32,325 nt of DNA, taken from the NCBI GenBank assembly GCA_002011235.1, contig MTMO01000067.1, forward strand, positions 1 to 32,325, written 5' to 3'. The position numbers were made by a program, and so were the translations under genes. The stretch comes from Archaeoglobus sp. JdFR-27. Lineage in GTDB: Archaea > Halobacteriota > Archaeoglobi > Archaeoglobales > Archaeoglobaceae. Below are positions 11,952 through 13,839 of the stretch, one piece after another. Below the pieces are notes generated by a model, which saw nothing but the letters and a program-made list of their open reading frames with translations, did not search any database and had not been told where the DNA came from. Each line of letters starts with the position of its first letter. Position 1 is the first letter of the stretch.

Positions 11952-12076
11952 GAAGGATAGAGATAAATATTAGGGCTGTAAAATACTTGGATTTTTGGAT
12001 AGTTTCTGCTTCTCAGTCATTCTTTGTTGACATAAAATAAATCTTTTACATTTTTAAAGTCTAGCTTGTTAAAACA

Positions 12077-13270
12077 TCACCTGTATCTTCTCACAACATA
12101 CAGTACTGACAGAACACTTATAATGGCTAGTACAGCTTCAAAACCTGGAGTCTTCTTTTCTTCAGTGGTTGGTAAAATAGTTGGTGAAGCTGTTGGTGAA
12201 GCTAGCGGAGTTGGTGGGGCTTCGGTTTTAAATCCGTGGGCTTTAATAGCATAAGTTGCAGCCCACTCTTTGTTTTTATCAGTATGACAGTACAAACAGG
12301 CAAAATCGAGAGTTACATAATCCCCTACCACATATTTACCATCTTCGGTAAACATGGGTGCATTTGGGTTGGTGTTTATCTCGAATAGATGAGTTCTCAC
12401 ATCACCCTGAAATTCACCCTTTTTAACAGCCGATTTTGTTGCAAATGGCATGTGACAGTCAATACATTTAACACCAGCTTTAGCAAGATTACTTCCAGCA
12501 TACTCCTTGGCAGCATCTTCATGGCAATATTCGCATTTAGTTCTTATTGCATCATCGACCATCGGATTTCTAACGCTTTTATGTGGGTCATGACAGACGA
12601 CACAGTTAAATTTCTTGTGAGGAGATGCCCAAAACTCAGGATATTGTTCGTGATGCTTGATAAATCCTCCACTTGCTGGTATCTTGTTTGGGTCTCCTCT
12701 TACATGACATTTACCGCAGAGTTCACTGCCGGTGTCAATAACTGCGCTTACATTGGATGGATCTGCAGCATGCTCAGATGAGGGACCGTGACATGCTTCA
12801 CATTCAATACCAGGGAAAGCCCACGTGCCGACAATTCCCGGAAGACCAGTCTGATGTCCTTCTTTTTTGTAACCAGTTGTGTGACAATCACCACAGTTGT
12901 ATGGTTTAACCTTTCCAGGATTGTATGGCACCCATTCCCCAGTTTCAATGTTGTACTGCACTGCATCCCCAGTTATGATGTAGCCGGTTTTGTTCACGAA
13001 TCTAGTTTTCCACCAGATTCCACCGATAACGTATGATATGTCGTCCCAGGTGTACCCCTTGGGAAGCTCCGTGACTTTTCTGATACCAAACTCCTCATTT
13101 CCCTCTCTTGCCTCATCGACTGGACGGAGTTTGTATGGATGTCCTGTTTTCATAAAATCATTCCAGATATCTTTATGACAGGTTTTGCATGTGTTACTAC
13201 CTGCATACTCCGATGAAGAAACGGGTATAAGTAGGAGGATCAGAACCAAGATAAATATATATTTTAACAT
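12077..13270 (-). CDS. Exported octahaem c-type cytochrome with PGF-CTERM anchor
   Basis: A 397-residue protein with an N-terminal signal peptide (residues about 1-20). It has eight CXXCH haem-binding motifs, starting at residues 28, 126, 157, 185, 223, 246, 269 and 325, which resemble the cytochrome c554/multihaem family. After the haem region comes a Pro/Thr/Ser-rich linker (about 350-373), then PGF at 375-377, a transmembrane segment and a basic RRYR end. That is the PGF-CTERM signal processed by archaeosortase A, so the protein is probably lipid-anchored outside the membrane. It likely moves electrons to or from an external acceptor such as Fe(III), nitrogen oxides or sulfur species; which one is not shown. 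No redox partner is adjacent. The promoter and a possible operator are listed separately. Confidence 0.93.
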   Translation of the reverse strand: MLKYIFILVLILLLIPVSSSEYAGSNTCKTCHKDIWNDFMKTGHPYKLRPVDEAREGNEEFGIRKVTELPKGYTWDDISYVIGGIWWKTRFVNKTGYIITGDAVQYNIETGEWVPYNPGKVKPYNCGDCHTTGYKKEGHQTGLPGIVGTWAFPGIECEACHGPSSEHAADPSNVSAVIDTGSELCGKCHVRGDPNKIPASGGFIKHHEQYPEFWASPHKKFNCVVCHDPHKSVRNPMVDDAIRTKCEYCHEDAAKEYAGSNLAKAGVKCIDCHMPFATKSAVKKGEFQGDVRTHLFEINTNPNAPMFTEDGKYVVGDYVTLDFACLYCHTDKNKEWAATYAIKAHGFKTEAPPTPLASPTASPTILPTTEEKKTPGFEAVLAIISVLSVLYVVRRYR

Positions 13271-13283
13271 GAATAATCATGTT
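13266..13283. promoter_or_regulatory. Perfect 18-bp inverted repeat at the cytochrome start
   Basis: AACATGAATAATCATGTT has perfect 7-bp arms and a 4-base spacer. It overlaps the cytochrome ATG (13270-13268) and the predicted transcription start, just downstream of the TATA box at 13294-13301. This is the classic position for an archaeal repressor operator. Function is inferred from position and symmetry. Confidence 0.5.
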
Positions 13284-13293
13284 TTTTCAAACA

Positions 13294-13301
13294 TATTTAA
13301 A
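13294..13301 (-). promoter_or_regulatory. TATA box for the octahaem cytochrome
   Basis: TTTAAATA on the minus strand lies 24-31 bases before the ATG at 13270, predicting a leaderless or nearly leaderless mRNA. Confidence 0.55.
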
Positions 13302-13366
13302 CTTTTCTTCTGACCTCCTGTTTTATTGTATCTGCTCAACCAAAAAACCTCCTTAAACCGGAAGAC

Positions 13367-13746
13367 TTACAGCCAATTCCAGCCCACGCTTCTATGAGGT
13401 TTGATCTTGTTATACCATCTTACAACTTAGCATTCTCTTAACCTCGCCAAAGAACTCACTCAGCTCATCATTCGTTTGAGGACGTTTAATCCTTGTTAAA
13501 ATATGCTAAACTTCTTTCCCAGCAAAAATTGCTTATTTATGATTAGCTTTATCTCTACTTTTTTATCTACTGGTCTGATTTTCTTTCTCGTTTTCTGATG
13601 GCATTTTGGCGGTTTTCTTGGATTTCTATAATAGTATAATAGATTCTTTACCTTGTAACGAGGAATTTAGATATTTATCAGATTTTTCCTTTAAGTCATT
13701 GTTTGGTTATTCTCACTATGTCCTTGTTCGTTAGCTTTTCCACATA
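13367..13746 (-). pseudogene. Decayed integrase-core transposase (IS481-like)
   Basis: No intact gene lies in the 569 bases between the cytochrome and the bifunctional nuclease, but the minus strand keeps pieces of an rve-type transposase in different frames. Near 13746 an N-terminal piece reads YVEKLTNKDIVRITKQ. Further on, HILTRIKRPQTNDELSEFFG then GEVKRML (about 13495-13430) matches the family block RPQTNGKxERFF. A shifted frame then reads VRWYNKIKPHRSVGWNWL, matching WYN..RPHRSL, and stops at 13367. The remnant is about 380 bases, whereas a full transposase gene would be near 1 kb, so internal DNA has been lost and frames are broken. I found no clear terminal inverted repeats. Confidence 0.65.
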
Positions 13747-13839
13747 GCAGTTTTGTTCGAATGTAAGCTATTTTTTGGGAAAATACAATCAAAACTTCCC
13801 ACGAAAAACTATTAATATTTAACTTCCCTTAATTCAATA

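Follow-up and report, generated by a model that had tools for sequence, protein, structure and literature searches.

The cytochrome gene and its locus

The window, by which we mean the whole stretch of 32,325 nucleotides analysed here (contig MTMO01000067.1 of Archaeoglobus sp. JdFR-27), contains at positions 12077-13270 one open reading frame of 397 residues, located on the minus strand, the plus strand being interrupted by 12 stops in the same interval. The sequence-only reading of this DNA had described an octahaem cytochrome here, naming no strand, and its count of eight CXXCH motifs proved correct: the motifs take up all 16 cysteines of the precursor, and 20,000 shuffles of its residues gave a mean of 0.026 motifs and a maximum of 2. 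The signal peptide, the Pro/Thr linker and the PGF-transmembrane-basic tail that it had also described are all present as judged by sequence and hydropathy (Table 1), with an N-terminal hydrophobic stretch reaching a Kyte-Doolittle value of 3.27 over 14 residues, and with the final 52 residues running from the Pro/Thr linker through TPGFE and a hydrophobic segment to RRYR. The GC content of the gene is 0.426, compared with 0.409 for the whole window. On the minus strand at window positions 13294-13301, about 27 bases upstream of the start codon, we noticed TTTAAATA, at a distance that would suit the TATA box of an archaeal gene transcribed without a leader.

Table 1. Features of the octahaem cytochrome gene and its product, in window coordinates
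Feature	Residues	Positions	Strand	Basis or remark
Octahaem cytochrome gene, 397-aa precursor		12077..13270	minus	residue 1 at 13270
Signal-peptide-like N-terminus, without lipobox Cys	1-20	13211..13270	minus	sequence and hydropathy
Haem 1, CKTCH	28-32	13175..13189	minus	
Haem 2, CGDCH, predicted open (five-coordinate)	126-130	12881..12895	minus	coordination predicted from OcwA (PMC6703420)
Haem 3, CEACH	157-161	12788..12802	minus	
Haem 4, CGKCH	185-189	12704..12718	minus	
HHEQYPE motif, candidate distal pocket of haem 2	206-212	12635..12655	minus	column conservation; OcwA spacing
Haem 5, CVVCH, counterpart of OcwA haem 6	223-227	12590..12604	minus	
Haem 6, CEYCH	246-250	12521..12535	minus	
Haem 7, CIDCH, followed by MP	269-273	12452..12466	minus	
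Haem 8, CLYCH	325-329	12284..12298	minus	
Pro/Thr-rich linker, mostly low model confidence	349-373	12152..12226	minus	
PGF-CTERM sorting signal: PGFE, hydrophobic helix, RRYR	374-397	12080..12151	minus	PF18204, 28.7 bits

The gene is flanked by luciferase-like (F420-type) and bifunctional-nuclease genes, and no partner oxidoreductase is adjacent, in agreement with the sequence-only reading. Five congeners have the neighbouring nuclease at 80-99% identity, which shows that the window contig is no stray. A full-length homologue of the cytochrome was found in none of the five same-genus genomes (0/5), and one at 72% identity occurs in genomes from two other genera within the family. The site itself (window 11952-13839; L139-L142) was compared in the congeners G001, G002, G003 and G005, the fifth, G004, lying outside this comparison; G001, G002 and G005 have both flanking genes side by side and lack the cytochrome gene. 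In G003, a molybdopterin oxidoreductase split into two frames occupies the cytochrome site. Given the patchy presence and the empty sites in congeners, the cytochrome is a single-gene accessory unit, mobile or often lost.

In the loci that we read (three from Archaeoglobales and nine others), no partner gene common to distant groups was found, and the neighbourhood was dropped as a clue to the substrate, as no conserved neighbour names one. By reading of the sequences, one family member (L090) has haem-maturation genes as neighbours, and two members from Nitrospirota (L009 and L013) both have a set of substrate-binding, histidine-kinase and regulator genes upstream. A stretch of about 10 kb on the first of these Nitrospirota contigs (L009:5716-16065) carries five octahaem genes, one of which belongs to the family of the window cytochrome.

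The cytochrome family, its tethers and the sorting pathway

Relatives of the cytochrome occur in Archaeoglobales, Methanoperedens, Methanosarcina and other members of the same phylum and, among bacteria, in Nitrospirota, Bacillota, Spirochaetota, Chloroflexota and others, with 36-71% identity to the window protein in the family alignment. That it might be unique to the window is ruled out by full-length matches in seven of the 149 relative genomes searched, its own included. At E 1e-20, 12 of 392 genomes of the phylum have a match, which in G362 is only part of very long reading frames. Each of these frames (L122 and L123) is about 1000 residues long; they have at least 16 and at least 13 haem motifs, the locus ends cutting them short, and contain a stretch that resembles the N-terminal part of the family.

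In the 33 aligned rows, a PGF- or PAF-like tail is present in 16/16 full-type archaeal sequences versus 0/16 bacterial ones, as counted by a simple pattern together with reading of the tails; the Pfam PGF-CTERM model itself detects 6/33 rows at E 0.05. The remaining row, L024 (Thermoproteota), with six motifs and shorter than the family, has no PGF tail and was excluded from the 16, and L022, also flagged by the pattern, was dropped because it ends in a membrane domain of several helices. The bacterial members have other additions: L004 carries a copper-amine-oxidase N-terminal domain (Cu_amine_oxidN1), L021 shows by eye a lipoprotein-like start and a collagen-like stretch, a Collagen match was obtained in one bacterial member by domain search, and L022 and L023 both have a membrane domain, again by eye. 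In another member, otherwise full (L011:7956-9035), the last haem motif is CLGACH (CX3CH) rather than CXXCH. Trees of the family, from which L024 was excluded in both cases and the long-branched L025 in the second, require two changes of domain label, and a single archaeal clade is not rejected by the AU test (p 0.462); we therefore claim neither a double gain of the tail nor a direction of transfer.

The tail of the window protein scores 28.7 bits with the Pfam PGF-CTERM model PF18204 (cut-off 18.8) and 21.1 with NCBIfam TIGR04126, under the cut-off of 24.5. Among the seven places in the genome above the PGF-CTERM cut-off, the cytochrome ranks second by score. The sequence-only reading had proposed to look for ArtA in the genome, and held that its absence would refute lipid anchoring; archaeosortase A is present (TIGR04125, 232.8 bits, cut-off 75), so that this objection falls away. 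The artA gene is adjoined by pssD and pssA, matching archaetidylserine/phosphatidylserine decarboxylase and synthase, respectively. In Haloferax, ArtA-dependent maturation requires both PssA and PssD, and in several Methanosarcina species artA, pssA and pssD are neighbours (PMC7157517). With these pathway genes in the genome and a tripartite tail on the protein, the cytochrome is a good candidate archaeosortase substrate. Lipid anchoring at the cell surface, as the sequence-only reading had suggested, is well supported by the tail and by the ArtA, PssD and PssA genes, cleavage and lipidation themselves being predictions.

Predicted fold, haem order and the candidate open haem

An AlphaFold2 model, haem-free and built from 33 sequences, reached a pLDDT of 84.5 and a pTM of 0.73. 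In VIA-align its best matches were OcwA (Z 17.1, 292 residues, 4.0 A), MccA (Z 14.5, 314 residues) and OmhA (Z 14.4, 271 residues), the next entry scoring 6.1, and Foldseek returned the same three. The structural comparison with octahaem reductases proposed by the sequence-only reading leads to OcwA, MccA and OmhA, as does a profile search (4.5e-30, 5.1e-20 and 3.9e-20, respectively). Haems 1-4 of the window protein align with haems 1-4 of OcwA, and haems 5-8 fit OcwA haems 6-9, the last part through weak segments and a CHMP motif. The window core fits, at the level of aligned sequence, the haem order of OcwA minus its haem 5. The OcwA authors suggested that MccA-type octahaem proteins possibly arose through loss of haem 5 (PMC6703420). 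Beyond haem 8, a single helix (334-344) precedes the linker and the tail helix in the model.

Two haems of OcwA, 2 and 5, are five-coordinate and lie below a His-His pair each, 281/282 and 380/381 (PMC6703420). In the numbering of the deposited chain, with an offset of 29, these pairs become 252/253 and 351/352, and HH is seen at both places in the aligned segments. The HHEQYPE motif of the window protein shares with the OcwA sequence HHLQYPEWLMTGH the spacing to the next His, with 7/13 positions identical; the segment bearing HHEQY scores 2.6 bits against OcwA, which is not significant alone, and the profile search favours another register there. Conservation was assessed on 29 full rows, after dropping L005, L008, L020 and L024 as partial or short. 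His206 is present in 27 of these and His207 in 25, the pair being absent from L022 and L023, and His44, His167, His230 and His294 are invariant (29/29). Column 218 is always His (16), Met (10) or Lys (3), a pattern as expected for an axial ligand. By likeness to OcwA haem 2, we infer that haem 2 is open, lying below the His pair of HHxQY. Among the conserved His and Met residues we count no more than six candidate ligands for the seven haems that would then be six-coordinate, which means that one ligand is unaccounted for, or that a second haem may be open.

Proposed function and comparison with known cytochromes

The host genome (99.74% complete, 3.89% contamination) contains dsrA with a downstream gene read as dsrB, and dsrJ with genes read as dsrMKOP, indicating that the host is a sulfate reducer, and it has three cytochrome-assembly (haem-maturation) matches over the cut-off. 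A second octahaem protein of the same genome, of HAO type (PF13447, 510 aa; L110:4871-8778, contig C41), is encoded in a cluster that also comprises NrfD, an iron-sulfur protein and a protein with four haems, and its nearest NCBIfam model is hydrazine dehydrogenase, far under the cut-off of that model. A further cluster (L097:5796-9153, contig C34) has NrfD, an iron-sulfur protein and three small multihaem cytochromes (4, 3 and 5 motifs) in a row. These two NrfD clusters are candidate electron donors to the cytochrome.

On balance, we judge it somewhat more likely than not that the protein acts as a lipid-anchored terminal oxidoreductase at the cell surface, in which one haem, haem 2, is probably open, and that it is fed from menaquinol by an NrfD-type module. 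This explanation builds on the gene, its tail, the ArtA-PssD-PssA genes, the family, the predicted fold and the pattern of conservation. The octahaem c-type cytochrome would be secreted, cut by archaeosortase A at PGF and passed to an archaeal lipid, and its Pro/Thr stalk would hold the haem domain outside the membrane, either beneath the S-layer or inside it. In the compact OcwA/MccA-type core, seven haems would form an electron chain, and haem 2, facing HHEQY, would be the open site reducing a soluble or surface-accessible acceptor, with electrons arriving from menaquinol via one of the genome's NrfD-type modules with multihaem subunits.

The sequence-only reading had seen in the protein a plausible outer electron conduit, a role that is possible, although fold and family point instead to the terminal reductases OcwA, OmhA and MccA. 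As the protein matches terminal reductases in both respects and one haem is probably open, a role as the enzyme that terminates the chain is likelier than that of a passive wire. A pure conduit, with eight six-coordinate haems that only take electrons from membrane cytochromes through the cell surface and pass them on to minerals, partner cells or other cytochromes, would suit a single-gene unit without conserved neighbours, and small PGF-CTERM cytochromes of ANME archaea were proposed as membrane electron carriers (PMC9012536). We consider it rather unlikely in view of the top structural matches, and of the near-invariant HHxQY which, like many invariant non-ligand residues (e.g. K88, G83, G84, W113 and W150), suggests more than haem packing.

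If haem 2 served instead to reduce a small molecule such as nitrite, hydroxylamine or a sulfur compound, the protein would be a detoxifying enzyme with no part in respiration on solids. Slow reduction of nitrite and a reaction with hydroxylamine, though none with sulfite, are described for OcwA (PMC6703420), and MccA is second in the structural ranking, but the hallmarks of MccA are missing, haem 8 having a CXXCH in place of the CX15CH motif and no cysteine lying beyond the haem motifs, so that we judge this function improbable. A tail acting as a plain C-terminal transmembrane anchor, unprocessed by archaeosortase, would account for the hydrophobic segment and for the TIGR04126 score below cut-off, yet it is improbable in the light of a Pfam PGF-CTERM score above cut-off, of PGFE kept in 4/4 Archaeoglobales members, of PGF- or PAF-like tails in all full-type archaeal rows and of a genome encoding ArtA, PssD and PssA.

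In our view the protein is a real candidate, and a good one, for an archaeal surface reductase with a lipid anchor. For the family as a whole we propose, tentatively, a portable octahaem reductase core shared by bacteria and archaea, whose tether may be fitted to the cell envelope. Archaea would use a lipid tail attached by archaeosortase, Clostridia an N-terminal domain of copper-amine-oxidase type, Chloroflexota a putative lipoprotein start and some Nitrospirota a membrane domain, with no tether in others. All but one branch would keep a single open haem under the His-His pair, and the archaeal members would be lipid-anchored counterparts of OcwA with an acceptor as yet undescribed. If these proposals are true, archaea without an outer membrane could place a terminal reductase outside the cell by means of one gene and an existing archaeosortase pathway, the Gram-positive surface reductases OcwA and OmhA would gain a link to archaea, methanogens and anaerobic methane oxidisers among them, and the HHxQY motif and haem 2 would be named as testable sites. 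The compact core may also be a handy model for the relation of octahaem to nonahaem enzymes.

Several known types of cytochrome were considered, and the HAO type and the archaeal nanowire were rejected. The HAO-type model PF13447 has no match to the window protein at E 1, against 1.6e-24 for the other octahaem protein of the genome. For an MtrC-type decahaem protein the results point both ways: the MtrC/OmcA model PF22113 has a match at residues 244-361, with a protein score of 48.8 bits, and no MtrC-type entry is present among the VIA-align matches listed. The archaeal cytochrome nanowire AvECN has four haems per subunit, three of them ligated from another subunit (PMC12203936), as opposed to eight haems in the window protein, for which no nanowire-named entry was found at E 0.01.

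MccA, the octahaem copper sulfite reductase (PDB 4RKM), shares with the window protein the eight haems in OcwA order minus haem 5, but has about 660 ordered residues, compared with about 340 in the window core. The active-site copper of MccA is ligated by Cys. The window protein has neither the CX15CH motif of MccA/SirA, its aligned haem 8 being CLYCH, nor extra cysteines free for copper, all 16 being in haem motifs, and identity with an MccA/SirA sulfite reductase was rejected on these grounds. OmhA of Carboxydothermus ferrireducens (PDB 6QVM), an S-layer Fe(III) reductase, has the surface-reductase role proposed for the window protein and differs in having 11 haems, and its residues 1-217 lie outside the best-scoring stretch.

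PGF-CTERM tails on small multihaem cytochromes, and a possible lipid link through them, are already in print for ANME archaea (PMC9012536, PMC5244752), and the broad idea is not new; the descriptions drawn on here treat such proteins as a class, without the window family, its bacterial relatives or its fold. No paper describing the family as such was found in the open-licence literature. The value added by our analysis is the placement in a family, the swapping of anchors and the prediction of an open haem. By both sequence and structure the closest known system is OcwA of Thermincola potens (PDB 6I5B), a nonahaem surface terminal reductase (PMC6703420) that resembles the window protein in the HHxQYPE motif and in the surface location predicted for the latter. 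The window protein has eight haems instead of nine, lacking OcwA haem 5 together with the His pair of that haem, and its model lacks the C-terminal three-helix bundle of OcwA, whereas an archaeal lipid-anchor tail is added.
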